Source of the DNA: Spinacia oleracea
Lineage: Eukaryota; Streptophyta; Magnoliopsida; Caryophyllales; Amaranthaceae
Direction of reading: 5' to 3'
Assembly: GCF_020520425.1 (NCBI RefSeq)
Contig: NC_079487.1
Span: 65,340,398-65,404,397 of the forward strand
DNA: 64,000 bases
Shown here: positions 1 to 30,017 of the stretch, piece after piece
Layout of the letters: each line of letters begins with the position of its first letter
How positions within the stretch are numbered: position 1 is the stretch's first letter
Notes under the pieces: generated by a model
Databases searched by the model: none
Seen by the model: only the letters and a program-made list of their open reading frames with translations
What the model was told of the DNA's origin: nothing
Position numbers and translations under genes: made by a program

Positions 1-2365
1 CATAGCCATGATCAACACACACAAACAAAGCACGTAATCAGCAAAGCTGAGTACTACATACTAAAACAATAATTATCCTAACATGATACTATTAAATGAA
101 CCCTAACATGATACTATTAAACATAAGTAAGGGCAGACAAAACACGATAATTTGACGACCATACTTGACTAGACTAGGCTAGACTTATGACAATAATATT
201 ATTTTGGTTGAAATAGACAATGGACCGAGTTGTCCATCCAGAAGTCTTCACTAAGGAAGACGAGGTACGGGCGCGACTCCGTAACCTCAGTGACCTGCGA
301 TATCGAGGAACGTTTAAATAAAAATAGAACACGGTGATCAATCCGGTCCCAGAAAAGGCCATGGGCTACCACCATGAACCCCAACTCCTGTTTGTCCGTC
401 ACTTTAGACGTGCACAGTCTAAAACTATTGCTACTCAGTTTCACTTTACATGATTTACAATTGAGATTTCGTTATGACTCAACAATCACATAAGACATAC
501 AATTCACATTTGTTCACAACTGTTTTTATCTTGGAATTAAGTAAGTGATCATAAAAGCATCAATCAAGACTCAATCCAATTTATCCAATCTTTCCTTTAA
601 CCATGAGCAACCCTGTATATGGGCATAAAGTTTCAACTTACTAAACAAGGTCCACCGCCCTCATAAAGTAGTGAAAAGATAGAAAGGGAACAACAACAAA
701 TCGATCCAAACCAATCATATAGAATTATCTAGTGTTCCCAACCAACATGTTTGTATCAATCATCCATACTAACATGTTACAGTTCTCATAGTGCAAAATA
801 AGTTCAATAAGTTTGTCCAACAGTATTAAACATGCACATTCCATATAACCAAGTTCGTCCATAATATCAACATCACCAAGTTCAACAACAAATTCAACAT
901 GATTTCAATAATTAGCACACATTCCAAGCACACAGGTATGTACGTACCTTGTGTAAACAAATTGATAGGCCACTTTAACACTTTCAAAAGTCGCCTAAAG
1001 AGAATTCTCCGCCTAAAACAACCAACAAATATTCCCAATCAATTCCTAATCATTGATAACCATAAGAGAGCATTCTAAATGCATCCTAAACATATTTAGA
1101 ACTTTTCTCCAATAACAAAACTTGAACATTTGATTTCCTAGCATCATAATTATTGAATTAATTATTGAAATTCGTTGAAAACTCTTCAAAGCATCATACT
1201 TAAATTTCCAGCAATATAAACTCGTTTAAAACTTTGCCAAGGCCAATTTAACATGCCTAGAACGTTGAAACAATAATTTTAATAATCCATACTCAACCTA
1301 CCATGATTTACAATCATAAAAACCTTGAATTTTCATACTTTAAATATTCAAAAAAAATCAATATTTCAATGTAATTAGGAAATCTGAAAATTAAATATAT
1401 TATTTGAACATACTATATAAATCTGAAAATCCAATTAACTCATAAAAATCATAGATTTATTAAATCAAATCATAAATTAAATAAACAAAATAAAATCAAA
1501 ATATTTAGTTTACTTAGGGTTTAAGAAATAACCAAGAAAAGAGGGAGAGTTTGGGCGGCCGGCGGCTGAGTCGCGGCAGCAGGTGGTCGCAAAGGTGGCT
1601 GCAAGTAAGGGCGGCGGCACACGTTGGTGGTGGCTGTGAGGACGAGCAAAGTCAGCCACGAAAAGCAATAAGGGAAAGGAAGAAAACGAAAAGGAAAGGA
1701 AAGGAAAGAATAAGGAGGAGGGTTCTACCGTGCGGTGGCCGGCAGTTAGGGTTGCGCTGACGGCGGCAGGATGCTCGGCGGCAGCAAGTTCGCGGAGGAT
1801 TCTGGTTCGAACAACAACAGTGAATGAGGATGGGAACAAACCGAAAGATACAAGAGGAAAGAGGGAGAAAGGGAGGGCGACGAACAAGTGGTGAGAGGCC
1901 TTACTGGCGACGACGGTTGATGTAGGTCCGGTGGCTGGCTAGCGACGGTCGTGAAGGGAGGACAGAAAACGGCAGTGTGGGGGATGAGGTTTGAGTTCAC
2001 GTGAAACAGAGAGAAGGAACAAGAGGAGGGCTTTGATTTGTTTTACGTGAAATAGTTTGGGTGATGGTTTGAGGTTTGGGTTTTGATGTTGGGCTTTCCC
2101 AAGTAGGCTAGAATTAGGATTTGGCTTTAATGATTCGAATCCAAAACTGAATAGGATCGTTTTCTAAATTCAATCAATTTTCGTAATTCAAATTCTTTTC
2201 AACTTAAAATTCTAAAATTATTTTCGATTTCGTAAATCGTTGAAAATATTAAAATGTAATAAATAAATATACGTTAATTATATATTTATTTCTAAAATTC
2301 ATAAATTCTTATTTAAATATATTAAATATACGTTAAAATATATAAATAAATTACGGGGGATTACA
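1..2365 (-). mobile_element. Partial LTR, older copy of the 2964-bp LTR family
   Basis: Base 1 lines up with base 10023 of the complete LTR, and the similarity runs with substitutions and indels to the shared end ACGGGGGATTACA at 2365. The start of the LTR lies outside the window. Read on the minus strand it begins TGTAATCCCC. The flank after 2365 (ATCCTACCCC) resembles the polypurine tract beside the complete copy, so this could be a 3' LTR with its internal part to the right, or a solo LTR. The GC-rich purine block at 1547-1990 matches 11743-12270. It is clearly older than the two matched LTRs. Confidence 0.8.
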
Positions 2366-3069
2366 ATCCTACCCCGCGTTTATTTCCCCATCAAGTTGGG
2401 ACGACTTGAAAATCAGCATATTAATGTGAACGGGCAGAACATCATAACGAATCTCGGCTCCCTCGGGAGTTGGGACTAAGGATACCGTTTTCGCCAATAG
2501 GGGGGTGCATACCGCGCATGTTTCCCACTCGGTACTTGTGCAGGTAGTACACCTATCCCGAACCCAATCGCTCGCTCATTAGGTCCCTCTCGCCTGCATG
2601 CCCCCTTGGCTTGCACTTGCGGGTTGGCCTCTTGAGCGAAATTCGTCTGTTGAAGACACTACCTCGACCGGGGCATGTGTTGGATCTACGATAGAAGCGG
2701 TACCAAGCCAGGCGCAAATAAACTACCCATAGAAGCCTATCATAAACTACATGGCATATTTAATTTTCAAATCCATGTTTGTAATGTAGTTATGTGTAGC
2801 GAAATATGTGATTGTGTGTGACAAACTACCCTAGAAAACCAACGACCTTAAAAATTGCCCAAACATTCATGAACCAATTGGCCAAAGAGTTATACCAAAA
2901 TACGTGTTCCGCAAGCCCGAACGATCGCCACAAAAATAAGCGACGCTCGGGATGGCCGTAACGAATCCCACAAACGATGCACAACGCGTAAAGGACGTTA
3001 TTAGGCAAGCACGCAAATCGAAGTCGCATAAACAGAAGACAGAAAACGAGAACCAGCCAGGGACGCATT

Positions 3070-3125
3070 TTCAACGCCCCTGTCTGGGCGCCAGAATTTC
3101 TCACGCCCCTTGCTGGGCGCTGAAG
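3070..3125. repeat. Paired GC palindromes, copy 1
   Basis: Two imperfect palindromes of the form CGCCCNNNNTGGGCGC lie about 30 bp apart, preceded by TTTTCAA. The same two-palindrome module recurs at 5277, 7378, 8478 and 19998. Confidence 0.8.
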
Positions 3126-4689
3126 TTGCTGCCTGGCCTTTTGGTCAGGCACAGCAGCCTCGGTACACGCGCATAAAAAATATATACGTAGCAAAAAAAA
3201 GACTTTTCGAAAAAATTGCTTCGAGGGCGTAAGAAAAGCACTCGATTTCAAAAGCGACTCGTAAAAAATTAATAACTCCTTGCGTCGTTGTTAGGTCTCC
3301 TACGACGACAATGCTCGGCACTAAAAACCGAACGTGCTAATAATTATGAATGTCACATGGGCGAAGTATTCAAAAAATAATGTTCGAATAAAGTCTTCAA
3401 GAAAAAATAAATGTTCAAATAAAAAATAAATAAATCCGAGTCTAGACTAGGCTATGCCGAAGTACAATCTAAATCCTAAGTGTTAGTTGTCTTATCTATA
3501 GAATCGGTCCTAATGCTTGGTGTCGTTCTGCAAATTAAAAGGTTAAACCATATTGAGTCTCCCTTTCTAACATTTAAATCAATAAAGCACCCATATGTAA
3601 TTGTCATCCCTTGCCAAGAGTCTACGGCCTTAATACTCTCTCTCACCAATAAAAAGAATATATTATAGTATTTGCAAAATGGAAACGGTCACATTCTGAA
3701 AATCATTCCCCCATAGTCGCACAACCCCTAAAGTGAACCTAAGGTGTCAATACCATTGGCAAGGAAAATTAATGGCCTCAAGGCTTATAATCACATTGGG
3801 TCACGACTATCATAGTCCTCTCGAGTCACTCACTCCTTGAAATACTATTAAGTACGGACTAAAAGATTTTCCATGAATGCAACATGACCAACCATGAAAA
3901 TACCCAAATCAGCATACCAATAAGGCTACCATTGGGGTAAAAGCAATACACACTAAGAGAAAAGCCGCACTAATGATTCTAGTCTTGCAAAAATAAAAAT
4001 TCGATCTCCCCAATTAACTACCTAGCCAACATTAAGTAAAGTGGCGCATGACAAATGAACACCCAAGGGTTAAAATCTAAAGTGTCAACCAACGAAAGTT
4101 ATGGTCCAATTAGCCTAAGTCTGGGAGTCGCTTGGTCAAGTACTATAGGCTTACACCACGTCATTATTTTGAGTCTAGGCCACCTCCTTGTATTCATACA
4201 CGGGTTATAATCAGAAAGATTAATGAAAGTTCGAGTCTAAATCACAACTTCCAATTAAATCCCAGAAACTGGAATCTGAAAAGAAGCAAAAATTATCTTC
4301 GATGTAATTCTTTCGTTAAATTTCAATAAGGTAAAAATAACATCTTGAACCTACGCTATTTGCACATTTTAAGAAACGACTAAATACGCTTGCAAAGTAA
4401 AGACAATTGAAAGGTCCACCCTAGGCCTGCTAAAATTAAAGGTCCACTATAGGCCTACCAAACGAGGCTCATTCAGTCTCGCCTCGTGACTCAAAGACCA
4501 CAACCATCTAACTTTTAGCCCAAATAAAAAAAATTATGTTGAGGGGGGAAATCCCGAGCAAAAAAGAAAAAATAGAAAGAGAAAAGGGAGAGCGAAAAGA
4601 GCAAGCCATGAAATACTTAGCCCGTGCCTCCCAAAGTGCAAAATTTACCCAAGTAAACGAAGGAAAAGAATTGAGTCAACCAATCCAAA

Positions 4690-4989
4690 TCATAAAATTC
4701 TACGAGGTCTACCCTTTCCAATCCTTATGCTCTTAGACGCCTTCGCTCTGGGGTCCCTGTTCAGCTCATTTAACCCATCCATGCTCTCATTGCCATAAAC
4801 CAAGAAACCGTTACCTCGACTCTTGTTCCTGAACTTGTTGTCAACCACAAACCACGCACGGCCATTGACACGTGCGTCATACCCATTATTTCCAAAACCT
4901 GCTCTTATACCACCATTAGCATAATGACCATATAACTTGTGGGGATACATCCTATTGGTATACCCTTGAGCCGTCCCCATGCTACTCAT
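4690..4989 (-). pseudogene. Captured fragment of an ECT-type YTH-domain (m6A reader) gene
   Basis: A 99-codon frame from ATG to stop, on the strand opposite the surrounding Tat-like element. Its residues match the region just upstream of the YTH domain in plant ECT proteins: YTNRMYPHKLYGHYANG, then FGNNGYDARVNGRAWFVVD near residues 33-51, then GNESMDGLNELNRDPRAKAS near residues 67-86. Similarity stops about residue 88, where the frame drifts and ends. The YTH domain itself is absent, so no m6A binding is expected. Full ECT proteins are several times longer. The frame is open across all the conserved residues, suggesting recent capture or retention. Tat-lineage elements are known to carry extra antisense ORFs in this position; that this is one is inference. 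Confidence 0.75.
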
Positions 4990-5276
4990 TGGCCTTGGTT
5001 AATGTAAACTCGTGACACTAGCACGAAGATGCAAATTGTGAGCCCTAGCAGATATAATCCTCATGCTTGACCAACACCTATACAAATTCTCCTATCTCAT
5101 TCAACCCATCTTTCAAGCCGTCTTGAGTCACAAACAAAAAAAAGGAAACAAATGAAAAGTGCAAAAAAAAATGTGAATAATAAAAAAGAAACTTTGCAAA
5201 AGCGCCTCTAAAGTTAGTCTAAAAAGAGAAACAAAGAAGCATTTAGCGCACCAAAAAATATCCGCCCAGAAACCAT

Positions 5277-5340
5277 TTTCAGCACCCAGAGATGGGCGCC
5301 GAAATCTTTAGCGCCCAAGCTTGGGCGCCGATTCTCTCTG
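5277..5340. repeat. Paired GC palindromes, copy 2
   Basis: Same module as at 3070: CACCCAGAGATGGGCGCC, then GCGCCCAAGCTTGGGCGC, whose core is a perfect palindrome. The flanks (CCCAGAAA before, ATTCTCTCTGC after) resemble those of copy 3. Confidence 0.8.
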
Positions 5341-7377
5341 CTTGCTGAAAAATTTGTCCACAAGTGCTCGTCACTTTATCCACACATGCACGGAAAAATA
5401 ACGAACACTTGGAGGGGTACAACACGTATTCAGGTATACGTACCAAAAAAAACACATGAAAATACATGTACTCAAAAATATAAAACAAATTTTTGGCTTA
5501 CGGCAAGGCAGCAGATTTAAACAATAATAAACTTCACTTATTCTACCGTTTCAAATAATATGTTTCCACCTCAGAACATACTTGTTTAAAATCGGCATTC
5601 TATGAAACCATTTTCTAGGCCAAGAACTACGCAAGACCTGATTCCAAATTAAATCTATTTAAGGCGGATATGTAGGCAATCCATGATTCGGTCCAACCAA
5701 TTTGCAAAAATATTAAAGCCTATAGAAAAACAAGAATAAAAATAGAAGTCCCTTATTGAAATTTAATTACTTGCAACCCAAGTCGAAAGAAAAATTTAAG
5801 TCAAAGGAAGAATCCAAGTCACCAAGATGCCAAAATTAATGAGCACACATCGAAAAATAATAAGGGCATGTACCCTTGCCAGAAGGAGCACTCACACTCC
5901 TAGGCACTTAGCCAAGACTCAAAAGATCGCTTTGCCTCAATTGAATGGGGGCTAGCGCAAGCGTCCATGACCTCTAAAGTACTCAACTTGACCCTCCCTA
6001 AAGCAAACTAACTCACTTAAAGACTTTCTTTCACCACTAGACATAGTCACTCACTTAAAGACCTTCTTTTACCACTAGACACAGTCATGATCGCCAACAA
6101 ATAGTAAGAGCAGTAAGCTTGCAATAAAGAGGATTGTTCTACGGCATCGCCCCATCGTTCCTCCGAACTCAGGGTATCCGTTCGTGGTAATTCAAATGCT
6201 TGCTAATCCCCTTTGAAAAAAATTAGACATTGTCAATAGGACTTGGCACTTAACCAAGGCTCACCCTACTCAGACATATGACACGGGCATCTAAAATCGA
6301 AATCTAAAAACATCATTAATGGGAAGACATAATAGCAACTGGGGGCTAAAAATTGAAATGAAAGAGCTAGGGAAAGAACTAAGTATACCTTGACCTTTTG
6401 TACAGACATACACCAAGTAAATCTAAGTCAATTTGAAAACGGTTTATATTCCCGCAATCCTGGAAAAGATGGCCCTAAAAGCCTAAAGCACATGCCAAAC
6501 GGGTACAAGTATATCTTGACGCATGCACCCTGGCTTCCAGCAAATCCTTAGACAGCATTCCAAAGATCGTAACAATATTTTGATTCACTCATGTAATCCT
6601 GTACGAACCCTTCTATAAGTTAGCCTACTTAGGACACCTCGGATTGTACATAATAGGACTCGGATTTTAAATAATTTCCAAATAATTTTTTAAAGACTTC
6701 TTCGGACAAATAAAGTGTCGTTGGTTTAAGTTTAGTGTGCATTTATCTCGATGTTGCAAGTGAGTCAAAAAGATTTTTAAATATGATTATGGGTAAAGAA
6801 AGGCACCTAACTTTTAGTCAAGGCACACTTCAACATGTGACTACCTTGACCATGGCAATGTCGCACAATACGACATTTACAAGAGAAGTAGCAAATCACT
6901 ACTCGAACGTACCTCGCACTAAACGAGTCTGGTTCAAACTATTCATGATCCGTGTCACCATGAATGCATAAAAACGTATGCAAAGCATTATAGCACCAAG
7001 CCAATCCCGTAGCTACAATTGGGGGCTTGAGAAAAACACTCTAAAAATGCTCGAAATGACGATTTTATCGCAAATTCTCGACGCTAATGCTATACATATG
7101 TCATAGGGGCACAATCCTAAGCTTTAAATTGTGAAAAACAAACCTTAGAATGGCTACAACCCCTCCCAAATTCTAAGCACTACTAAGAATATATAAAGTC
7201 ACCCCACTAACAAGGGTAACTGAAAATCGCGAGTCACCAAAACTCCGATCAAACCACTGCACATAACGCTCGCCCTATAAGCGCCCGTTACACGGTCTAC
7301 CTCGTTCCAAAGCAAAAGCGAAAGAAAAAAAATCATCAATAAAGAAAAAACTGTCGAAATTCTACCCAGAAATCAAT

Positions 7378-7440
7378 TTCAACGCCCAGAGCTGGGCGCC
7401 GATATCTTTAACGCCCCAGCCTGGGCGCTGAATCTTTCTG
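7378..7440. repeat. Paired GC palindromes, copy 3
   Basis: ACGCCCAGAGCTGGGCGCC followed by CGCCCCAGCCTGGGCGC, about 2.1 kb after copy 2. The flanks match copy 2 (AATCTTTCTGCT after). Confidence 0.8.
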
Positions 7441-8477
7441 CTAGCCAAGTTTTACCCAGATATAAAAATAAGAAAGAAACACCTATGAATCCTCGCATCG
7501 AACGAAGTAATAAGCCGTGCAAACCCACGCAAAAGGTGCTACACTTATTCGAGCACCTGAACAAGGCATGATGAAATACTCCAATGCAAATGATATCCCA
7601 ACACTTGGAGGAATGTTCTAAGACACGCCGTTAGGCCACACAAGCCTGCGTTGCACCATAATCCCGCAGTACAAGTCTAAAAAAGGGTAAGGCACATTGC
7701 ACTAATGCAAGCACGACCAAGAGTAAGAGGCAAAGACTACTTATCGCCCAAATGCAAGCCACACGACTTCTACATTAAGGATTAAAGGTAGCAAAACATT
7801 ACCTACCACGGAAGGGATAGCTCGCACCTACACGAGCGAAACCCCAAGGCATCTTTCTCGAAAGAACCTACAAAAATCGTACGCCAAAAGGAAGCATCCA
7901 AACATGCATACTTGGGGGCTCCAAGCTACGAAACAACCATAGCAAAATAAAAATAATAAAAAAAAAAAAATCTCGAAGCAAATGTTTGAACAATCGAAAG
8001 AGCACGACGTTTGAGCCCACTTCATGAATGAGCCTGAACTCTATCAAGCTTCTAAGCAAACTATTCAAAATCAGTCATTGCTCAAAAAAAAAAAAATGAT
8101 TCAAGCAAACTGATTAATGGACCGCACACAACGGCCAGTCTATGAACGCTCGTTCGCACATACATATCATCATTCACGAACACGTTCAAAAAATATGAGA
8201 GCGATCAAATTCTTACACCTCAAGGTATGTTCCTCGGGCCATATAGACTCGCCCGACTATTGCAATAACTGTACACCTTAAGAGCAACAGTTCCTTAAAA
8301 TAATCGCCCCAAAGCGACAAGCACCGTAGTCCACCAATCGGCTACGGCTTCTCAAGAAAATCATCACGTTCTAAAAACAAAGAAAAAACAAAAGAAAAGA
8401 GAATACATAGAACTTCCAAGTGAAATAAACGAATGAACAAGAGGCCAACTGTGTCATCAAAAGACCAGCCCAAACAA

Positions 8478-8545
8478 CACTTTCAACGCCTCACCTGGGC
8501 GTGAATTATTTCAACGCCCAGGCCTGGGCGCCGAAAATGAATCCA
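8478..8545. repeat. Paired GC palindromes, copy 4
   Basis: ACGCCTCACCTGGGCGTG followed by CGCCCAGGCCTGGGCG, about 1.1 kb after copy 3. The second palindrome is perfect over GCCCAGGCCTGGGC. Confidence 0.8.
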
Positions 8546-8974
8546 GACTCAAAAGGCCCAACCTTCTATTGGGCCCTGCCATATTCATTCGGCTTGAAAA
8601 TTGCCGATTTCTTCACTAAAAGTCGCACCTCACGGCTTTGTTAAAAATAGCACACTACTATAGGAGGTCTCTTGCACATACGAGCGTGACCCCAAACATG
8701 ATTACAAGATGCAAAAACAACCGACGAGCGCCAACGCTTGGGGGCTCGCAAAAAAGGGGACTCCAACAAGGAGCGCGTAATCAAAATCACATTCCCAGAC
8801 TACGCCACGCACCATATCTTGTTTGGATATCTCAAAAAAAAATATTGTTAAACAAAAATATACACAATGTGGACCCACTTATAGGACACATCTAATCAGG
8901 AAATATTACGACCCACCAACAGGTTGTAATCACAAAAGCCCTTCTACATAGGCAAAATAAGAAATTCAACATGG

Positions 8975-9475
8975 GCTCGCCCACCCTCAGCGGGCGGGGT
9001 CTGCGTCACTAGCTGCGCAGGTCCTCAGTTTTTTAAAGAATAAAGTCTTCAAATTTAAAATAGGCTCGCCATCTTCAGCCGGCGGGGTCTACGGCGCAAA
9101 CCGCGTAGGTCCTTATTTTCAAAAAAAAAATTTAAACAGATTCGTCCACTTCAGCGGACGGGGTGTCCACCCTCAGCGGACAAGGTTCGCCACCTTCAGC
9201 GGGCGGGGTCTACGTCACAAACCGCGTAGGTCCTTATTTTCAAAAAAAAATTAAATAGATTCGTCCACTTCAGCGGACGGGGTGTCCACCCTCAGCGGAC
9301 AAGGTTCGCCACCTTCAGCGGGCGGGGTCTACGTCACAGACCGCGTAGGTCCTTATTTTCTAAAAACATCAAACAGATTCTTCCACTTCTATCGGACGGG
9401 GGGTCCCCCTCAGAGGACAGGCTCGCCCACCTTCAGCGGGCGGGGTCTGCGTCACTAACAGCGCAGGTCCTTAGT
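8975..9475 (+). repeat. Minisatellite, ~115-bp units with GCGGGCGGGGTCT core
   Basis: Four to five units repeat the string TTCAGCGGGCGGGGTCT, ACGTCAC, CCGCGTAGGTCCTTATTTTC and an A-run, with a sub-repeat CACTTCAGCGGACGGGGTGT. The two central units (about 9130-9360) are nearly identical and the outer ones diverge. Such arrays are typical just upstream of the 3' LTR in Tat/Ogre elements. Confidence 0.85.
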
Positions 9476-9493
9476 CGCTGCAGCGATAACTTT

Positions 9494-9575
9494 TACTGGA
9501 TTTTCCTTCGTTTTACTTCCTATAAAAACAAGGGTACTGGATTTTCCTTCGTTTTACTTCCTATAAAAACAAGGG
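9494..9575 (+). repeat. 41-bp tandem duplication
   Basis: Two identical 41-bp copies start TACTGGATTTTCCTTCG and end AAAACAAGGG (9494-9534 and 9535-9575). They lie 60 bp before the nested insertion. Confidence 0.9.
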
Positions 9576-9634
9576 GGTTTTCTCGTTTAGCCAGCCCTGA
9601 AAATGAGAATCTTTAAAAACGTTTTACCTCGTGA

Positions 9635-9639
9635 TTGGG
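9635..9639. repeat. Target site duplication TTGGG (left)
   Basis: TTGGG directly precedes the LTR start at 9640 and is repeated at 19207-19211 directly after the other LTR. A 5-bp duplication fits LTR retrotransposon integration. Confidence 0.95.
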
Positions 9640-12603
9640 TGTAACACCCCAACAATTCCCATTTTCTAAAATAACCTCTTTTTAAATATAACTGTAGGGA
9701 ATTATCAAAGTATTATCGCCCGTGTGAAAACGTTACGGCTTATTCAGAATTTTGCAGCGGAAAACATAAAACTAACTTTTAGGTTCATAAATAATCTATT
9801 ACACATTAGGTCCAAAACAATTAACTGAATTAAGGAAATACGAATAGTACGACAAATTTCAAATCCAAGTTAACAAATTAAATCACTTAATTAAACGAAT
9901 AGAACTACAAGCTCTCTAATACTGATCCCAATGATGCATCATCTTCAAACCTGTAGATGGGCAACGCTTATTGATCCTTAGAGACTGCTCACCAAAGATG
10001 GGTCATCACAGGATCAATAAGGCATAGCCATGATCAACACACACAAACAAAGCACGTAATCAGCAAAGCTGAGTACTACATACTAAAACAACAACAATCC
10101 TAGCATGATACTATCAAACCAACAACCCTAACATGATACTAATAAATATAAGGAAGGACAGACAAAACATAATAAATTGACGATTATACTTGACTAGACT
10201 AAGCTAGGCTTAATAACCATAATATTATTTTAGTTGAAATAGACAATGGACCGAGTTGACCATCCAGAAGTCTTCACTAAGGAAGACGAGGTACGGGCGC
10301 GACTCCGTAACCTCAGTGACCTGCGATATCGAGGAACGTTTAAATAAAAATAGGACACGGTGATCAATCCGGTCCCAGAAAAGGCCATGGGCTACCACCA
10401 TGAACCCCAACTCCTGTTTGTCCGTCACTTCAGACGTGCACAGTCTAAAGCTATTGCTATTCAGTTTCACTTTACATGATTTACAAATTGAGATTCCGTT
10501 ATGACTCAACCATTACATAAGACAGACAATTCACAATTGTTCACAACTGTTTTTATCTTGGAATTAAGTAAGTGATCATAAAAGCATCAATCAAGACTCA
10601 TTCCAACTTAACCAACCTTTCCTTTAACCATGAGCAACCCTGTATATGGGCATAAAGTTTCAACTTACTAAACAAGGTCCTCCGCCCTTATAAAGTAGTG
10701 AAAAGATAGAAAGGGAATAACAACCAATTGATCCAACCCAATCATATAGAATAATCTAGTGTTCCCAACCAACATGTTTGTATCAAACATCCATACTAAC
10801 ATGTTACAGTTCTTATAGTGCAAAATAAGTTCAATAAGTTTGTCCAACAGTATTAAACATGCACATTCAATATAACCCAGTTCGTCCATAATATCAACAT
10901 CACCAAGTTCAACAATAATATCAACATAACCAAGTTCAACAACAAGATTCAACATGGTTTCAACAATTAGCACACGTTCCAAGCACACAGGTATGTACGT
11001 ACCTTGTGTAAACAAACTGATAGGCCACTTTAACACTTTCAAAAGTCGCCCACAAAGAATTCTCCGCCTAAAACAATCAAGAAACGTACCTAAATCAATT
11101 CCTAATCATTGGAAACCATAACAAAGCATTCTAAATGCATCCTAAACATATTTAGAACATTTCCCAATATCAAAACTTAAACCTTTGATTTCCTATCATC
11201 ATAATTATTAAATTAGTGATTGAAATTCGTTGAAAACTCTTTGCAAACATCGTACTTTAAATTTTCAGAAACATAACTAATTTCAAACTATTCCAAAACA
11301 TAATTAACATTCTTAAGATCATAAAAATAATAGCTTTAATAATGTATAATCATTCTATTATGATTTTAGAACATTAAAACCTTAAAAATCCATGCTTTAA
11401 TAATTAAATTCCTTATTTCAATTCAACTATGTAATCTGAAAATTAAATTATCAATTAAGCATAATGTATAATCTGAAAATCTAACTTAATCATAAAAACT
11501 TATAATTTATATTCACGAAACATGAATTAAGTTAATAAAACTTCATTAAAACCCTAATTTAAACGTAATTAACAAATCTGAAAATAATTAAATTAATTTC
11601 GACAACATATAATCTAAAAATTAGTAATTAAATCATAAAAATCATAAATTTATTCAATCAAAACATAAATTAAATTGATAAAATATAATTAAAACATTTA
11701 ATTACTTAGGTTTTAAGAAATAACCAAAAGAGAGAAGGAAAGAAGGCTGGCCGGAGGTGGTTCAGCGGCGCGGCGGCGCGGCGTCAATGGGGCGGTGGTG
11801 CGCGCGGCAATGGGGCGGTGGTGCGCGCGGTGGTGGCTGCCGCAACAACATAACACGAGTGAGGAGGATGAATAAACAACAAGGGAAAGGGGAACGAAAG
11901 GGAACAAAAGAAAACGAAAGGGAAGAGGAAGAGGTACCGACGGAGGACGGCTGGTGGCAGAGCCGCACACGGTGGTGCGTGGCTGGGCGTAGTGACGAAT
12001 GCTGGTGGTCCTCGGTGGTGGTTGTGCGAAAAACGAAAGCCACAATTAAGGGGAGAGGAGGAGTGATAAACGGAAAGGGAGATCGAAGAAGAAACAGAGG
12101 GGAGAGGAGAGTTACCGACGGCGGCGTGCAGGTGGAAGGGTGGTCGCGGCGGCGGCTGTTGATGGTGGTTGACGCAGGCGGAGAGGGGGCTGCAAGGAGG
12201 AGAGGGAGGAGGTTGGTTTCACGTGAAGGAGGAGGAATAAGGAGGGTTTGGGATTTGAGTTTTACGTGAAGTAAAAACAAGGAGAGGGTTATGGGTTTAC
12301 TTGGTAGTTTATTTAACTTGGGCTTTACTACTTGGGCTAGGATTAAGATTTAGTTTGTTGAATCCAAAATGGTTAGGATTGCTTCCTAATTTCAATCGAA
12401 CGGAATTTCGTAATTCGAATTCGTTTTAACTTAAAATTCTAAAATCATTTTCAATTTCGTAAATCGTTGAAAATATTAAAATGTAATAAATAAATATACG
12501 TTAATTATATTATTTATTTCCAAAATTCGTAAATTCTATTCAAATACAATTAACTATATTTTAAAATTTATTAATAAAATTTATAAAATTACGGGGGATT
12601 ACA
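9640..12603 (-). repeat. 3' LTR of the gag-only element
   Basis: 2964 bp, plus-strand start TGTAACACCCCAAC and end GGGGGATTACA. A GC-rich purine block at 11743-12270 interrupts an otherwise AT-rich LTR. Frames of 110-172 codons cross that block on both strands, but they are low-complexity and overlap each other, so they are not called as genes. Confidence 0.95.
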
Positions 12604-12616
12604 ATCTACCCCTCTT
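12604..12616 (-). other. Polypurine tract of the gag-only element
   Basis: On the minus strand AAGAGGGGTAGAT abuts the TGTAATCC start of the 3' LTR. This is where plus-strand DNA synthesis would be primed. Confidence 0.85.
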
Positions 12617-13046
12617 AAAAGAAGTTTCGTCCCGAAACTTGACAAGAAATTTCCCACACTTTCCCCAAAAGCTTTTAACTTATTCTTACTAGAGAAGTAT
12701 TTGTGCCACCTAAGTGCACTATTTTGCCAACTCAAAGCTGTTTGTGTTACTCATGAACACCTTTTCTTATGCGGAGAATCTATTTGCTTTGCATCAACTT
12801 GTAAAGGTTGCTAAAAATAAGCATAAAATGCATAAAAATACCATAAAAATAGGTAAAAAGCGCGAATTTCTATCGCATTCTACCCCCTTAAAGAAAACGA
12901 GTTACGCCCTCGTAACTCACCTCAGGGAATAGCTAACCAAAATTCTCTTTCGACGAATTCTCTTTTCAAAATTCCCATTTCATTAAAACTACTAACTTTA
13001 GACTTTTCACAACAGATGACGAAACAAAAGAACAAGTCACCACGAA

Positions 13047-14189
13047 TTAAATAATGCTTAACTTGCGCGGAGTTAATAGAAAAGTACCAGAATCTATATC
13101 GGAAGATCGTTCATCCTCATTCTGATTCATCATGTACAACTTTCCTGGAGCCTTATTCGGGTTGTTGTTATCATTTGCAGGCTTATTATAGTTCTCTTGA
13201 TTGTTTTGTGCCCCTCCAGGCTTTGAATTTTGACCTCCAAACTGGTTAAACCTCACTTGGTTTCCAGCTTTATTACTATTTTGTTCCTTTCTGTGCTTAG
13301 TGAAGCACTCATACTCCCTATGTCCCCTTTTCTGACAATAGTTGCAGGTCACTAATTCTCCGTTGCAGTTCTTACCAGGGTGATTGCTACTGCACATCTT
13401 GCAATGATGCACTCTCTTAGATTGGTTCGAATTGTTGTGGTGCCCCTGATTGCTTCTTCCCTGAAAATTTCCATTTCCACTCTCATTCCTATTCACGTTT
13501 CTATTCTTCTTGAAATTCCCTCGGTTTTTCCCAGCATCAAACTCTTTTCTTTTCTCCCCAATAACATTTTTCTTGTCCCTTCTAGACTGCAAACCATGAA
13601 TATGGGCGGTTCTCTCATACGCATTCTCTAAAGGTATAAAGGTTTCTCCACCTAATTCCAACTGGATCTCATCGGTCAACCCTTGCTCAAACATCTGAGC
13701 CTTTATCTCCTCTATGGCTACAACCTCAGGTGTAAACTTCGACAACGCTATAAATTTGCTATAATATTCAGCGATGGTCATACTCCCCATCCCAAGGTTT
13801 ATGAATTCCTGCGCTTTTCGTTTTGTAATAAAAGGAGGATAAAACTTTTCCCTCAATGCAACAACAAATGAGTCCCAATTAAATCTCTCGGCAGTACTTA
13901 GCCTAGTTTCATTCTCTCTCCACCACAGATCGGCTTCATCTTTTAGGTAAAGGACAGCTTGACCTACTCTCATACTCATAGGGCAACTCACAGCCTCAAA
14001 CTGTTTCTCAAACTCCCTAATCCAATTTTCTAAGAAGGTAAGGTCTGATTGTCCCTTGAAGTATGGTGGTTTAACCCTAGAAAGTCTTTCAAACATTTCC
14101 CCTGCAGATTTGGGGCGCTCAGTTCTTTCCTGAGTCAGCTTTTCCGCCAAAAGGCGAATAGCCACGGCTAGATCATTGTTGTTGGCCAT
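13047..14189 (-). CDS. gag: Gag polyprotein of the gag-only element
   Basis: 380 residues from ATG at 14189. Residues about 35-200 form a retrotransposon Gag domain: VKPPYFKGQ, then the LYLKDEADLWWRENE and KFYPPF signatures. A basic, Asn-rich stretch follows (about 205-255). Two zinc knuckles come next: CKMC-X3-H-X4-C and CNYC-X4-H-X4-C (about 262-295). The Asn/Gln-rich tail ends without any protease domain. Gag would form the virus-like particle and bind the element RNA through the knuckles. The frame is unbroken, as expected for a young element. The first knuckle has three residues rather than four between C and H. No frameshift or readthrough into pol is possible because no pol follows. 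Confidence 0.92.
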   Translation of the reverse strand: MANNNDLAVAIRLLAEKLTQERTERPKSAGEMFERLSRVKPPYFKGQSDLTFLENWIREFEKQFEAVSCPMSMRVGQAVLYLKDEADLWWRENETRLSTAERFNWDSFVVALREKFYPPFITKRKAQEFINLGMGSMTIAEYYSKFIALSKFTPEVVAIEEIKAQMFEQGLTDEIQLELGGETFIPLENAYERTAHIHGLQSRRDKKNVIGEKRKEFDAGKNRGNFKKNRNVNRNESGNGNFQGRSNQGHHNNSNQSKRVHHCKMCSSNHPGKNCNGELVTCNYCQKRGHREYECFTKHRKEQNSNKAGNQVRFNQFGGQNSKPGGAQNNQENYNKPANDNNNPNKAPGKLYMMNQNEDERSSDIDSGTFLLTPRKLSII

Positions 14190-14868
14190 TCTAGAACGTG
14201 ACCTGCAATTAGAATACTCTACTTTAGGTTTGAAACATCACCTATACGTTATCCCATACAATTTAATACTTGAATTGACCATAAAGATCGCCTCAACCAA
14301 CACTGTTCACATTAATACACATCATTTACGAAGGCACGACAATCGTTTACGAAGGTGCAACGATCGTCCACAAGATGCAATAATCATTGAAAAATAATCA
14401 TCCTCTATAATTCACGAAAGACATTCACACACTGCACATAAGGCATAACATTTTGAATCATATTGGTCATGAGGGTCTAGATTGGCCCTCACTTCCTTTA
14501 TGTACTCAAATCATTTAATATTATTGTGGCAATTAAATTGATCCACAATTCACACTGAGTATGCAACCAATAGAAAAATTAATCCATGACGTACTACCTA
14601 GAGGTTGGGGTATTATGGAATCCTCAAAATAGAATAAAGAACAATTCCTTGAAAACTTTAACTTTTATTGCTAACTCCATAGAGGTTTATTACATCCTTG
14701 AAAATAATAAAGAACATCTCAAACTTCAATAAACTTAAACCTTAAACAGTTGTAGCTTTGCTTGCTACTTATTCTTTAAAACATGAAAGAGCTAATTAAC
14801 TATTTATGACTTCAAAATATTTGTGGCCTCTTGCCTATCCATCGCTCCTGAAAGCTTTAGGAGTGACT

Positions 14869-15639
14869 TTAGATCTCAAGATCATCGAACTCTTCTTCAG
14901 GGTCTTCATCGGGGTCTTCCTCAGGGTTTGCATCTTCTTCCATGTCTTCATCTTGATTAGGCTCACTTGCCATCTCCTGTTCACTTTCGAGCTCTTCATC
15001 TGAATCACTAGAAATCTCAATGGTTGGCTCATGGGTCGCTGGGTTAGGATTCCCTGCCTCAACATCTACATTCTCATTCTCCACAGCTACATCATTTTCC
15101 TCTAGGTCATTATTTACACTTACTCCCATAGGTTCTTCTGTAACTGCATCTCCAACATGACTCCCTACGATTTTACCGTCTCTAAACCCACTTTCTGCCG
15201 CCTCAATAATGGTGGTCAGAATTTCTGAATCATATTTCCATCTACCATCCCAAGTCCCATACTTAGTCAAGTTTGGAGTTCCATTATCAGAATGCATGTC
15301 TTTAAACTTTTCCTTGAGTTCTAGGTATGGAAATTTGTTAGGTAAGCAATTAATGATAGTGGCTGCTATGATATCCTTTCTCATTAAGATAGGTTGCCCT
15401 TGAACTTTAGCATAATATTCACATCCAAACACAATTTTCTTCACGTAAATATCAGGGATTTCTATATCAAGTTTCTCGAAGGATCCTATGTTGGTATACT
15501 TGGAAAGAAACATTTTATTCCTGAAATAAACAATTCCATGTCTCACTAACGATTTTCCAACCAAATCATAAACAAAGTTCAATAACGCAATAAGTTTGGT
15601 GGAATCAAACAATTCTTTATGCACATGTAAATGTAACAC
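14869..15639 (-). CDS. Extra acidic ORF upstream of gag, function unknown
   Basis: A frame of about 256 codons between primer site and gag, on the same strand as gag. It opens at GTG straight after an in-frame TAA. The first in-frame ATG is near residue 43, so the true start is either internal or reached by splicing (an AG lies just upstream). The first ~150 residues are a mixed, apparently folded region (IPDIYVKKIVFGCEYYAK; LPNKFPYLELKEKFKDMH; KYGTWDGRWKYDSE). The last ~90 are very acidic, with ISSDSDEELESEQE and long Asp/Glu-Pro runs. I do not recognise the family. Tat/Ogre elements also have an ORF before gag, but I cannot show homology. It is intact between two matching LTRs. Confidence 0.6.
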   Translation of the reverse strand: MLHLHVHKELFDSTKLIALLNFVYDLVGKSLVRHGIVYFRNKMFLSKYTNIGSFEKLDIEIPDIYVKKIVFGCEYYAKVQGQPILMRKDIIAATIINCLPNKFPYLELKEKFKDMHSDNGTPNLTKYGTWDGRWKYDSEILTTIIEAAESGFRDGKIVGSHVGDAVTEEPMGVSVNNDLEENDVAVENENVDVEAGNPNPATHEPTIEISSDSDEELESEQEMASEPNQDEDMEEDANPEEDPDEDPEEEFDDLEI

Positions 15640-15956
15640 TTAAACAATTAGCACACGCACGTACATAACAATCAATTTCTAATGCTAGCGTTGACTAGCC
15701 ACTAATGCACATATAATTCTATCTTATATGCCCTTCTTATACTACCCATCTCTCATAAGCTAAAGTATTGAAATAATTTAAATAACAAGGTAAGATGACG
15801 CTAATATAATAACATAAATAAAAATATAAAATAAATTAAGTAAAATAAATTAAGGAAATGCGTAGCGAATAAATTAGAAAATAAAGTTATTAATTCGAAA
15901 AGATTTATATTTTCTAATAACGAATTCTAACTCTTGAACAACTAAAAAAAATGTAC

Positions 15957-15989
15957 TTTTTTTTTTTTTGTTTTTTTTGTTTTTTTTGA
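15957..15989. repeat. T-rich homopolymer run in the element leader
   Basis: Three T-runs separated by single Gs, within the ~600 bp between the primer site and the acidic ORF. No other feature is visible in 15640-16227. Confidence 0.8.
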
Positions 15990-16227
15990 ATAATAAATAA
16001 TAAGAAAAATAGAAATGTCGAAAGTATCACTTTAACTTTAATAATAATTTGATTTCGAACTTAAATAAGAAATATTATATACTTTCAAACAGGATAAAAG
16101 GAAATCGGATCCCCAAAAAAAAGTACCAATTTTTTAACACTATAATCCGTAGAAGCTCGATTTTTAAGAAATTTATTTTAAATAACTAGATAGTTAGGCG
16201 CCTAAAATTTATTAAAATAAAACCTTA

Positions 16228-16239
16228 GCTCTGATACCA
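16228..16239 (-). other. Primer binding site, tRNA-iMet
   Basis: Minus-strand TGGTATCAGAGC, three bases inside the 5' LTR, is complementary to the 3' end of plant initiator tRNA-Met. It fixes the element as minus-strand. Confidence 0.93.
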
Positions 16240-16242
16240 CTT

Positions 16243-19206
16243 TGTAACACCCCAACAATTCCCATTTTCTAAAATAACCTCTTTTTAAATATAACTGTAG
16301 GGAATTATCAAAGTATTATCGCCCGTGTGAAAACGTTACGGCTTATTCAGAATTTTGCAGCGGAAAACATAAAACTAACTTTTAGGTTCATAAATAATCT
16401 ATTACACATTAGGTCCAAAACAATTAACTGAATTAAGGAAATACGAATAGTACGACAAATTTCAAATCCAAGTTAACAAATTAAATCACTTAATTAAACG
16501 AATAGAACTACAAGCTCTCTAATACTGATCCCAATGATGCATCATCTTCAAACCTGTAGATGGGCAACGCTTATTGATCCTTAGAGACTGCTCACCAAAG
16601 ATGGGTCATCACAGGATCAATAAGGCATAGCCATGATCAACACACACAAACAAAGCACGTAATCAGCAAAGCTGAGTACTACATACTAAAACAACAACAA
16701 TCCTAGCATGATACTATCAAACCAACAACCCTAACATGATACTAATAAATATAAGGAAGGACAGACAAAACATAATAAATTGACGATTATACTTGACTAG
16801 ACTAAGCTAGGCTTAATAACCATAATATTATTTTAGTTGAAATAGACAATGGACCGAGTTGACCATCCAGAAGTCTTCACTAAGGAAGACGAGGTACGGG
16901 CGCGACTCCGTAACCTCAGTGACCTGCGATATCGAGGAACGTTTAAATAAAAATAGGACACGGTGATCAATCCGGTCCCAGAAAAGGCCATGGGCTACCA
17001 CCATGAACCCCAACTCCTGTTTGTCCGTCACTTCAGACGTGCACAGTCTAAAGCTATTGCTATTCAGTTTCACTTTACATGATTTACAAATTGAGATTCC
17101 GTTATGACTCAACCATTACATAAGACAGACAATTCACAATTGTTCACAACTGTTTTTATCTTGGAATTAAGTAAGTGATCATAAAAGCATCAATCAAGAC
17201 TCATTCCAACTTAACCAACCTTTCCTTTAACCATGAGCAACCCTGTATATGGGCATAAAGTTTCAACTTACTAAACAAGGTCCTCCGCCCTTATAAAGTA
17301 GTGAAAAGATAGAAAGGGAATAACAACCAATTGATCCAACCCAATCATATAGAATAATCTAGTGTTCCCAACCAACATGTTTGTATCAAACATCCATACT
17401 AACATGTTACAGTTCTTATAGTGCAAAATAAGTTCAATAAGTTTGTCCAACAGTATTAAACATGCACATTCAATATAACCCAGTTCGTCCATAATATCAA
17501 CATCACCAAGTTCAACAATAATATCAACATAACCAAGTTCAACAACAAGATTCAACATGGTTTCAACAATTAGCACACGTTCCAAGCACACAGGTATGTA
17601 CGTACCTTGTGTAAACAAACTGATAGGCCACTTTAACACTTTCAAAAGTCGCCCACAAAGAATTCTCCGCCTAAAACAATCAAGAAACGTACCTAAATCA
17701 ATTCCTAATCATTGGAAACCATAACAAAGCATTCTAAATGCATCCTAAACATATTTAGAACATTTCCCAATATCAAAACTTAAACCTTTGATTTCCTATC
17801 ATCATAATTATTAAATTAGTGATTGAAATTCGTTGAAAACTCTTTGCAAACATCGTACTTTAAATTTTCAGAAACATAACTAATTTCAAACTATTCCAAA
17901 ACATAATTAACATTCTTAAGATCATAAAAATAATAGCTTTAATAATGTATAATCATTCTATTATGATTTTAGAACATTAAAACCTTAAAAATCCATGCTT
18001 TAATAATTAAATTCCTTATTTCAATTCAACTATGTAATCTGAAAATTAAATTATCAATTAAGCATAATGTATAATCTGAAAATCTAACTTAATCATAAAA
18101 ACTTATAATTTATATTCACGAAACATGAATTAAGTTAATAAAACTTCATTAAAACCCTAATTTAAACGTAATTAACAAATCTGAAAATAATTAAATTAAT
18201 TTCGACAACATATAATCTAAAAATTAGTAATTAAATCATAAAAATCATAAATTTATTCAATCAAAACATAAATTAAATTGATAAAATATAATTAAAACAT
18301 TTAATTACTTAGGTTTTAAGAAATAACCAAAAGAGAGAAGGAAAGAAGGCTGGCCGGAGGTGGTTCAGCGGCGCGGCGGCGCGGCGTCAATGGGGCGGTG
18401 GTGCGCGCGGCAATGGGGCGGTGGTGCGCGCGGTGGTGGCTGCCGCAACAACATAACACGAGTGAGGAGGATGAATAAACAACAAGGGAAAGGGGAACGA
18501 AAGGGAACAAAAGAAAACGAAAGGGAAGAGGAAGAGGTACCGACGGAGGACGGCTGGTGGCAGAGCCGCACACGGTGGTGCGTGGCTGGGCGTAGTGACG
18601 AATGCTGGTGGTCCTCGGTGGTGGTTGTGCGAAAAACGAAAGCCACAATTAAGGGGAGAGGAGGAGTGATAAACGGAAAGGGAGATCGAAGAAGAAACAG
18701 AGGGGAGAGGAGAGTTACCGACGGCGGCGTGCAGGTGGAAGGGTGGTCGCGGCGGCGGCTGTTGATGGTGGTTGACGCAGGCGGAGAGGGGGCTGCAAGG
18801 AGGAGAGGGAGGAGGTTGGTTTCACGTGAAGGAGGAGGAATAAGGAGGGTTTGGGATTTGAGTTTTACGTGAAGTAAAAACAAGGAGAGGGTTATGGGTT
18901 TACTTGGTAGTTTATTTAACTTGGGCTTTACTACTTGGGCTAGGATTAAGATTTAGTTTGTTGAATCCAAAATGGTTAGGATTGCTTCCTAATTTCAATC
19001 GAACGGAATTTCGTAATTCGAATTCGTTTTAACTTAAAATTCTAAAATCATTTTCAATTTCGTAAATCGTTGAAAATATTAAAATGTAATAAATAAATAT
19101 ACGTTAATTATATTATTTATTTCCAAAATTCGTAAATTCTATTCAAATACAATTAACTATATTTTAAAATTTATTAATAAAATTTATAAAATTACGGGGG
19201 ATTACA
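16243..19206 (-). repeat. 5' LTR of the gag-only element
   Basis: 2964 bp, same length as the copy at 9640-12603 and the same in every block compared. It carries the promoter for the element RNA, but no TATA box was assigned. Confidence 0.95.
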
Positions 19207-19211
19207 TTGGG
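19207..19211. repeat. Target site duplication TTGGG (right)
   Basis: Exact match to 9635-9639; marks re-entry into the Tat-like host element. Confidence 0.95.
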
Positions 19212-19523
19212 CTTGGCCAGGCCCAATTACACTTTACAGCTTTAATTTCGAAAACATCTGTAGTTACTCCCAATGACAAAGTGAGGGAGTTTCTACGCAT
19301 CTTTAGATCCTTCCAATGACAAAGTGAGGAAGTTTCTATACTATCGGTTGACAAATCCCAATGACACGTGAGGGATATGTCGACACTTCAAGTGATGACC
19401 CTTATGTCAAATGTTATCACTCGGGGGCTCGTGAGACCCTCGCAAAACAGGTCACATACACCATGGCTTGTGTGACGCACTCCGTCTAATACTTTGACCA
19501 TCGTCTTACTCCAAGACTCAGTC

Positions 19524-19534
19524 AAAGTGGGGGC
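19524..19534 (+). other. Polypurine tract of the Tat-like element
   Basis: AAAGTGGGGGC lies four bases before the LTR start TGTAGACACC at 19539, showing that the host element is on the plus strand. Confidence 0.75.
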
Positions 19535-19997
19535 TAACTGTAGACACCTACTTTTGTCCCCATTCCCGCAAGGGAAAGGTTCGATGATGAAAGCATAAAA
19601 ACTCCACTTGACAACGCATCTCCTATAAAATAAACGAATCTCGATTCCCCATTTCATTTTACCCAAAACCTGCTATTTATGGAAACCTGCTAAAAATAGT
19701 AACTGTCGTAAAAGGTAGCTTCTAAAAGTGGCAAATCATAAAAGATAGAAACCTGTTAGAATTAGGTGTTGCATTCCAACATAAATCCTAAATGAGATAG
19801 AAAACCGCGAGAATCCTATTCCTAATAGGATTCAGAAATAAGAGTTACGTATTAATTAAAATCCTAACGAACCTAGAGTTCGTAACGGGCCCAGACGCAT
19901 TCCGTCACAAATTGATACGCGCTAAGAGACTCAAATTAATCTCAAACTCTACGGATTTTAGAATCCGAATCTGACTAAACAAAAACTGCCCAGACCC

Positions 19998-20056
19998 TAT
20001 TTTCAACGCCTGGCTCTGGGCGCCGAAATCTTCGGTGCCCAGGCCTGGGCGCTGAA
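19998..20056. repeat. Paired GC palindromes, copy 5 (within the LTR)
   Basis: CGCCTGGCTCTGGGCGCC then GCCCAGGCCTGGGCGC, again after TTTTCAA. Unlike copies 1-4 it sits in the LTR, about 80 bp upstream of the TATA box. Confidence 0.8.
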
Positions 20057-20132
20057 AATACCTGGGTACGTTTCTTTTCCTAATTCTTTGCGGATTAGAA
20101 CTCTGCAATTCTATCCTTCCACGAACTCTTCC

Positions 20133-20141
20133 CTATAAATA
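20133..20141 (+). promoter_or_regulatory. TATA box of the Tat-like LTR
   Basis: CTATAAATA followed by AGACCCC in the middle of the LTR, the usual position for the U3/R boundary. Confidence 0.6.
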
Positions 20142-20999
20142 GACCCCTAGTTTCGACGTGAAACAACACAACAACACATAATATATTCTGAGTATTGACT
20201 CTAAACCCCTTAGCCTAAGCCTCTCGCTGCGAAACTGTTCACGCGTTCTGTCGTAATCGATCCATAAATCGAACAGAATGTATCTTGTCCCATAATCGAG
20301 ATTCGTTAAATAAAAAGGAGAAATAGCAAAGTCAAAGTGGTTAGTTTTCTGAGAACCGTGACGCACCTCTCAAGGGTGCGTCGTAATGTGTCCCTTTTCG
20401 ATGATTTAACTGCTTTACTCGCCCTTTTTATGAACTGTTAAACTAACCTAATATGATTGTTCTATCACGTCTAACAAATATAATATTTTTGGGAAATCGG
20501 ATTATCATGCTAGGTCCCTTAATGCTATTTAAATCAGATAATCACGATCGAATTAGTATTATATGTTGCATATTGCTAAAATCAATTCAGATTAGTTTAA
20601 TAGTTAACGCATGTCCCTTCAATTATTTATGCTGAGCTAGTAAGGATATCCTGCCTCTGGAGTTATCGACGAGCGAATTACTCCTCTCGGTAGTTACAGT
20701 CCCCCGAACCCTCAATCTCTACCTTGCGGGTGTATATTGAGAGATCCCCACACCAGGGATCACAAGGGAACCTACGGCCGTCGTGGTCAAACATAATTGC
20801 ACTCCCTTTATGTCACGATAACCGGGTTTTGTCAGTTTTTCTCATTGTTGTTAAAAACTGAATGACGACTCCTATATTACTAGTCAATTGGGTGTATACT
20901 CACAGGAAATCCAATTACACTTGATTGAATAAAAATAATCGTCACACCCACGAGGGACAAGGTCACGCATTAGCCTCGCGCTTTTTCGACCCCCTCACA

Positions 21000-25030: not shown

Positions 25031-25044
25031 AACTCCCCCAAGCT
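25031..25044 (-). other. Polypurine tract of the Athila derivative
   Basis: Minus-strand AGCTTGGGGGAGTT abuts the TGATATG start of the 3' LTR. Confidence 0.88.
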
Positions 25045-26635: not shown

Positions 26636-26935
26636 TCGCCCGATCGGACAGCAGATCGCCCGATCGGGCAGCAGATCGCTCGATCGGGAGAATTTCGAAC
26701 TTTTCGTTGAATCTGTGCGCGCCCGGTCGGGCGCACCTCGCCCGATCCGGATCGGGCGAAATGCAATGCCTTGTTTTATTGACTTTTCTCAGCCCAGAAT
26801 CCTTCCTTGACCTTTCTACGACGTCATCATCAACCGCCCGATCGGGCGGAATTTCGCCCGATCGGGCATTTCACTCGCCTTTTGTGTCGATCGGGCGCTC
26901 TTCGCCCGATCCGGGTCGGGCGAAATGCAAGCTGC
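26636..26935. repeat. GCCCGATCGGGC palindrome cluster, internal
   Basis: About nine perfect or near-perfect copies of CGCCCGATCGGGCG and CGCCCGATCCGGATCGGGCG within 300 bp of non-coding internal sequence, the same motifs as in the LTRs. Confidence 0.9.
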
Positions 26936-27231
26936 TCCGTTTGGCTTTGATTCAACTTTTTCGAGCTTGGGGCCTTAGACCTGCATAACATTAAACACCA
27001 AAACCGTAAAATACACTCATCTCGCCTCTCCAATACCAAGGACTACACTGAATCACACACTTGATCAAAAATTATACTAAAACACACAAAACGAAAGCAT
27101 AAAGTACACTACGGAAAGCAATAAATGGATAGTTAAGTACTCATCCCCTATTAGATTGGTGTAATGTCCCCATTACACAATCTCAGTTTATGCACAGACA
27201 ACGAAAGGAAGGGGATGAGAGCCACGACAAC

Positions 27232-29885: not shown

Positions 29886-29995
29886 GCAAAAACTAGAAAA
29901 TAGTCGTGAGATCCGGTCTCAAGGAACGGGAGTCCCTTGAGAAGTAACAAACAATAATCTAGAAAAACAATTAATAACAGAAAATAAAACCGTTG

Positions 29996-30012
29996 CCCCG
30001 GCAACGGCGCCA
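29996..30012 (-). other. Primer binding site, tRNA-Asp
   Basis: Minus-strand TGGCGCCGTTGCCGGGG, five bases inside the 5' LTR, is complementary to the 3' end of plant tRNA-Asp(GUC). This primer is usual for Athila and Tat elements. Confidence 0.92.
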
Positions 30013-30017
30013 AAATT

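Follow-up and report, generated by a model that had tools for sequence, protein, structure and literature searches.

Antisense additional open reading frames (ORFs), termed aORF-3R, are described in Retand and in other plant Ty3/gypsy retrotransposons (PMC7264820; PMC11963269), and the part of PMC7264820 that deals with them states that gene sequences resembling such frames are absent outside the elements, that transduced genes usually lie in sense orientation to gag-pol, and that the origin of most antisense ORFs is unknown. In this work we analyzed a 64,000-nucleotide stretch of the spinach genome (Spinacia oleracea, assembly GCF_020520425.1, contig NC_079487.1, C1:65340398-65404397; hereafter the window), in which a fragment of a gene for a reader of N6-methyladenosine (m6A) of the ECT type lies inside a retrotransposon with long terminal repeats (LTRs). 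The reading that we consider probably correct is that about 332 nt of spliced ECT mRNA were captured, antisense, by a non-autonomous family in which they are now found at about 3,000 junctions, that the capture was a template switch during plus-strand synthesis, and that the piece is a neutral passenger at the level of protein. Like the aORF-3R elements described in those papers, the spinach carrier contains internal frames on the strand opposite to the LTR transcript, and its tandem repeats lie on the side of the 3' LTR; unlike them, it contains no pol that could be found, its host parent is identified, and the frame is not conserved. It also resembles the transduction of host genes by LTR elements as portrayed in partial accounts of maize Bs1, with host mRNA inside an LTR element and microsimilarity at the switch point, an intron gone at the exact junction, and empty sites that lack only the host piece. 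It departs from usual transduction in that the spinach piece is antisense, that empty sites have been sequenced, and that the junctions number about 3,000.

Large retrotransposon derivatives (LARDs) have LTRs, a primer-binding site (PBS), a polypurine tract (PPT), a target site duplication (TSD) and a long non-coding internal region, all of which the carrier shares, with the difference that it holds a recognizable piece of host mRNA. Pack-MULEs are DNA transposons that take up genomic DNA; the spinach family is like them in its dispersed copies of a host gene fragment and in possible small RNAs directed at the parent, and unlike them in that the fragment derives from spliced mRNA. A part of the m6A machinery has likewise been taken up by orchid Ty3/gypsy elements, which carry an m6A demethylase (AlkB; PMC9289625). 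As presented in the relevant part of that paper, the orchid elements are 25 kb long and have a coding ORF with a functional enzyme domain, whereas the spinach piece is a non-catalytic, antisense fragment of a reader whose frame is not maintained. Among the Gypsy lineages of spinach, Ogre/Tat is reported to be the most abundant (PMC6337768). The capture of host genes, LTR elements that are non-autonomous, and ORFs in antisense are each known already, to judge from the pertinent parts of PMC7264820, PMC11963269 and PMC5408686. Among the open-licence papers listed by the searches, none was found that describes an ECT fragment inside a retrotransposon, and peptide strings of the ECT piece matched no text in open-licence papers. 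What the locus adds is an antisense piece together with its host parent, an exact splice junction, empty sites, and microhomology on the side predicted by polymerase priming, a combination through which template switching on the plus strand can be tested with sequence data only.

The preliminary description of this stretch had proposed that a frame opposite in strand to its host element is an ECT/YTH gene fragment, and had raised the possibility that the members of the family share it; the comparisons uphold the ECT origin, the antisense orientation and the presence across the family. The frame runs from stop to stop over 102 codons (4690-4998, minus strand, in the ORF list of the window). When searched by tblastn against the genome's own nine YTH-gene loci, it matched the host gene L045 (C4:102000-104200) with 80 of 94 residues identical (E 8e-50), the runner-up being L042 at 40% identity (E 4e-14); at the nucleotide level the ECT piece and L045 are identical at 89.5% of 296 nt. 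The nine loci were taken as one stretch of 2.1-2.8 kb for each place at which the YTH profile PF04146 matched (15 exon matches at nine places) in the assembly searched, which comprises 894 Mb in 242 contigs, six of them large (115-189 Mb). YTH exons lie at C4:103988-104481, just downstream of the L045 exon matched by the window frame, and the parent is therefore a YTH gene, which we take to be the one named ECT. The frame is thus confirmed as a piece of a host ECT (YTH m6A-reader) gene. The proof of identity rests on the host gene: searches with the window frame gave no match in Pfam or PDB, no relative among viral contigs, and among plasmids only four records at E 7-10.

The host-derived sequence exceeds the bounds of the frame. 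It occupies 4722-5053 on the minus strand, with roughly 32 nt on the low-coordinate side of the frame belonging to the element and 55 nt of host-derived sequence lying past the frame end, behind a TAA at 4999-5001 (minus strand) that shortens the frame in the window copy. This position was compared in a protein-picked sample of 20 copies, chosen by protein score and biased toward conserved protein; it reads CAA in 18 of the 19 others and is deleted in L002. By blastn, L045 is matched in two pieces, 753-793 and 1568-1860, which adjoin in the element. In the host the upstream piece (5011-5053 of the window, minus strand) ends in ..GTCATG before a GT donor at L045:796, and the downstream piece (4722-5010, minus strand) starts with AGTTTACATC at L045:1569, after TTGTAG with its AG acceptor. 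The 773-bp intron between them is absent from the element and the exons are joined exactly at the splice junction, which is matched exactly over 40 nt in copies L015 and L016; the ECT piece therefore came from spliced mRNA. All 20 protein-picked copies have an identical 3' border and a 5' border within 4 nt, and a single copying event from spliced ECT mRNA would be the simplest reading.

The distribution of the piece was addressed by searching the whole genome, with at most 3 mismatches, for the host-to-element junction and for the predicted uninterrupted site. Filled junctions were found at 1,507 + 1,480 = 2,987 places and empty sites at 248 + 272 = 520, the latter an undercount since the pattern used was not the optimal form for that site; the reversed-pattern controls gave 0 for filled and 0 for empty. 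Among 100 empty places listed, 1 had no mismatch, 13 had one and 86 had two, and the three copies read, with 0, 1 and 2 mismatches, all align to both flanks and lack just the insert. The borders shared at about 3,000 junctions point to one capture followed by amplification. Every one of the 150 protein matches scored (of 4,351 first-look candidates) carries the ECT piece, the window included. It is also present in all 20 copies of a flank-picked sample, which was selected by the flank at 5101-5500 (40 of the 2,771 candidates from the first look were scored, and 20 of the 39 non-window places were used). Two of these are damaged inside the piece: L051 has an internal deletion, and in L061 (C6:38526887-38527321) the piece is broken by LTR-like sequence resembling the LTR start of the same family.

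The structure of the carrier was read from ten other copies, each taken as a pair of 10-kb stretches. This LTR retrotransposon measures some 10.4-10.8 kb. Its 5' LTR, of about 1,460 bp and at most some 1,540, is followed by a TGG-type primer site, 75 bp, and then the region equal to the window from 2366 onward; the 3' part consists of some 5 kb that contain the 119-bp tandem repeats, then a purine tract and finally the 3' LTR. Where the intervening part is not deleted, the ECT piece lies about 2.4 kb from the 5' LTR. LTR pairs with TG..CA ends were found in four copies, with identities of 95.0% (L029), 98.6% (L033), 98.2% (L037) and 93.7-95.8% in two pieces (L035). Both outer flanks are available for the same four, and the TSD is perfect in L029 (CGTGC) and L037 (TTGTG), has one mismatch in L035, and is off by one in L033, where the start of the 5' LTR is altered. 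The PBS GTGGCGACTCCACTGGGGA stands directly behind the upstream LTR in six copies (L021, L029, L031, L033, L037 and L039), one of which has two changes in it, while L035 and L023 have other sequence in its place; the purine tract ahead of the 3' LTR, AAAGTGGGGGCTAAC, is the same in all eight copies printed. The internal region measures 7,370-7,831 bp and its longest frame 214 aa (four copies). No Pfam match above the cut-off, and no recognizable gag-pol, was seen in the ten window frames and four frames of other copies scanned, which were the longest frames only, and PF04195, the domain of the antisense TRP28 ORF of Retand, gave no match among the longest frames scanned in the window and other copies. 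As far as tested, the carrier is a non-autonomous LTR retrotransposon of the LARD type, with two TG..CA LTRs, a TSD, a PBS and a PPT and without recognizable gag-pol. The preliminary description had called the ECT frame unbroken and the rest of the internal region non-coding. The first is true of the window copy; the second is right in that none of the ten frames scanned has a Pfam match above the cut-off, and wrong in that frames of up to 154 codons exist. It had also called the element Tat-like; no pol, on which a reverse-transcriptase phylogeny and an extra RNase H domain would place it in the Tat/Ogre/Retand lineage, was found in it. A Retand-type placement of the piece, between pol and the 3' LTR, was considered and dropped, as in whole copies only some 2.4 kb separate the 5' LTR from the piece and no pol was seen. 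Single copies are shortened or rearranged here and there, and one of them, L039 (C3:104898050-104908049), has three LTRs of the carrier family in tandem with internal 5' pieces of about 525 bp between them.

In the window the purine tract and 3' LTR of the carrier lie on the plus strand (19523-20999), which sets the ECT piece antisense to it. Most filled sites read TTGGTCA, AGCATGAGGATT, AT, the host piece, AGCATAAGGATT and GGAAAGGG; empty sites read TTGGTCA or TTAGTCA followed by AGCATRAGGATT-GGAAAGGG. Both copies of the 12-mer are given on the minus strand of the window: AGCATGAGGATT, at 5056-5067, is the element's own at one border, and AGCATAAGGATT, at 4720-4731, forms the 3' border of the capture, where its first 10 nt are also host sequence and thus a microhomology. 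The host gene itself contains, at L045:1851-1860, the 10 nt with which the host piece ends, AGCATAAGGA. When the nine host loci are read on both strands, three of their 41,556 10-mers match the element's AGCATGAGGA at 9 or more of 10 positions, and L045:1851-1860 is among the three.

These borders suggest how the piece could have been acquired. A reverse transcriptase inside the particle would have extended the plus strand of the element, whose 3' end (..TCCTTATGCT) would have come off the element template and annealed over 10 nt to the ECT mRNA (AGCAUAAGGA); about 340 nt of the mRNA would then have been copied in the 3'-to-5' direction across the splice junction, and a return to the element template near the point of departure would have left the 12-mer AGCATRAGGATT repeated. 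The primed strand would be the plus strand of the element because copying starts at the 3' side of the mRNA, where the microhomology lies, and the piece would be antisense because a sense mRNA would have served as template for plus-strand DNA. A jump of the growing plus strand from minus-strand DNA to the ECT mRNA and back would in this way account for the antisense orientation, the missing intron, the microhomology at one border and the repeated 12-mer together.

The near-identical 12-bp repeats at both borders, and the truncation of the ECT piece at both ends relative to the gene, could also be put down to target-primed insertion of the kind used by long interspersed nuclear elements (LINEs). 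A 5'-truncated, internally primed ECT retrocopy would have entered an integrated copy of the element with a 12-bp TSD, AGCATRAGGATT, and the product would then have been amplified; 12 bp is a usual length for a LINE TSD. No poly(A) tract was found at the 3' border in the flank-picked copies, however, the right-hand 12-mer coincides over 10 nt with host sequence, as would not be expected of a plain TSD, and the nick site is unlike TTTT/AA, the LINE consensus. On balance we regard this route as unlikely. The same microhomology would also suit the repair of a double-strand break in an integrated element, whose broken 3' end would have primed on ECT mRNA or cDNA before being rejoined. RNA-templated repair is rare, and a return within a few bases of the start is explained more simply by template switching on an intact template; break repair therefore seems quite unlikely.

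Whether the frame itself matters was judged from its decay. The preliminary description had read the open frame as a sign of something kept, and this was not supported by comparison among copies. An open frame of such length had to be discarded as evidence in any case: of 200 order-2 Markov sequences of 7.3 kb, 93% have a frame of at least 102 codons (mean 2.97). In the flank-picked sample the host frame is open in just three of 20 copies, L052, L055 and L053, the last by compensation, and a +1 frameshift is common to 13 of 20. Genome-wide, this frameshift was found at 126 places on all six large contigs, with 95 of the first 100 listed matching the pattern exactly; the clade was amplified to 126 copies after its frame broke, and the frame was therefore not required for spread. 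Variable sites fall on the three codon positions at 30, 36 and 32 of 111, 111 and 110 in the flank-picked copies (L051 and L061 left out, the window added), and at 24, 19 and 26 of 110, 109 and 109 in the protein-picked ones. An in-frame TGA at codon 93 is common to five of the 20 protein-picked copies. There is no sign of purifying selection on the frame in these codon-position counts or in the frameshifted clade, and the captured ECT piece would at present be essentially a neutral passenger at the protein level. The estimate from 13 of 20 that most copies are frameshifted was rejected on the genome-wide count of 126 shifted against 2,859 unshifted places; the flank-picked sample is unrepresentative here because it is close to the window's own clade.

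A number of observations weigh against the capture, or the neutrality, as we read them. LINE-type insertion or break repair could likewise have left the 12-bp duplication and the microhomology. Empty sites could in principle arise from filled ones by deletion between the two 12-mers, and L070, the closest to filled copies, which retains the AAGG form of the 12-mer and has other features in common with them, is a candidate for such a deletion; L071 and L072 depart from filled copies at additional positions. A polarity from empty to filled is presumed within one genome, and no autonomous partner turned up, no search having been aimed at one. On the protein side, those 2,859 places lack the +1 frameshift, and the common indels relative to the host, +3 and -6, are both in frame. 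Comparison with the parent gene, a check suggested in the preliminary description, gives ratios of non-synonymous to synonymous divergence (dN/dS) of 0.36-0.72 in the protein-picked copies, for which the sampling bias has to be kept in mind and which are lowered because the host branch is constrained; codon positions in the same copies are unbiased. Among these copies dN/dS is 0.76 (ratio of means). The ECT piece is also less diverged than its immediate flanks in the protein-picked copies (0.033-0.060 over 4656-5048), which we do not use as evidence of selection because the copies were picked by ECT protein. Weak constraint on the protein at some time is still conceivable.

A stronger claim would be that a functional accessory peptide is made from the frame, which would then be comparable to the antisense ORFs of Retand or Grande elements. 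The two in-frame indels, and the absence of an internal stop from 126 of the 150 copies picked by protein similarity, would fit such a role, and PMC11963269 describes antisense ORFs as general among the Retand clusters that it surveyed. Set against this are the lack of codon-position bias in either sample, the host frame open in three of 20 flank-picked copies, and the growth of the frameshifted clade to 126 copies, in view of which an accessory peptide appears highly improbable.

Any effect of the captured ECT piece would instead be expected at the level of RNA, which is conceivable because transcription from the 5' LTR would yield RNA that contains ECT sequence in antisense. Each of 20 copies contains perfect 21-mer matches to host ECT exons, at 21 to 64 positions per copy, and small interfering RNAs (siRNAs) from the element could for this reason match the ECT mRNA; a small-RNA effect of the element on the host ECT gene is thus possible. 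Further than this, the piece might be selfish RNA, its antisense transcripts lowering the reader through siRNAs or pairing, or making silencing of the element costly, such that the ECT-bearing subfamily outgrew the empty one. The 21-mer matches and the excess of 2,987 filled over 520 empty sites (at most 3 mismatches) would agree with this, as would the restriction of ONSEN by m6A cited in a passage of PMC9289625. The empty sites are undercounted, however, the pattern not being their best form, and copy number alone is no evidence of function; on what the genome sequence offers, selfish RNA strikes us as very unlikely. A wider proposal has a distinctly small chance of being right: that after capture by a plus-strand switch the transcripts of the thousands of element copies act in trans on the reader, by pairing or siRNA, or shield the element, aiding the spread of the subfamily, and, separately, that such switching may be a general source of antisense ORFs. 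Shielding would work since targeting of the element would also hit the host's own ECT gene. A single genome thus has an m6A-reader exon in about 3,000 near-copies, with clear predictions for small-RNA and ECT expression data, and the m6A links of the orchid elements and of ONSEN, as outlined in part of PMC9289625, are a reason to look at the RNA level.

The window copy of the carrier is damaged, its own sequence being confined to 2366-9639 and 19212-20999 on the plus strand. Aligned to ten copies, the internal region at 2366-9639 begins at a point that lies 75 bp after the 5' LTR elsewhere; here that LTR is missing and the 5' part adjoins an LTR related to a nested family (1-2365, minus strand). 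The 3' part of the internal region contains 3.5 copies of the 119-bp tandem repeat (9062-9473, plus strand). The carrier is split by a nested gag-bearing LTR retrotransposon (9640-19206, minus strand) with the TSD TTGGG (19207-19211, plus strand). The remaining internal region (19207-19538, plus strand) ends in the purine tract CAAAGTGGGGGCTAAC at 19523-19538 and is followed by the 3' LTR of 1461 bp, TGTAGACACC...CCCCTCACA (19539-20999, plus strand). A second stretch of low divergence among the 20 protein-picked copies, 0.034-0.070 per 100-column block, lies outside the ECT piece at 5630-6105, and short GC-rich palindromic motifs around GGGCGCC / TGGGCG recur, by eye, at several places in 3060-8530.

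The nested element at 9640-19206 is very young, its 2,964-bp LTRs being 100% identical, and has an internal region of only 3.6 kb. It encodes gag (PF03732) at 13047-14237 and, upstream, a 256-aa frame at 14869-15639 without a Pfam match; there is no further frame of at least 140 aa between its LTRs. Elsewhere in the window, an LTR pair of 96.8% identity surrounds another gag match (PF03732) within 23565-31463, a region that also has sub-threshold aspartic-protease matches on the minus strand. A Copia-type integrase remnant (PF00665, PF13976) lies at 59010-60761 on the plus strand, and a second frame after it, at 60099-60761 on the same strand, looks pol-like.
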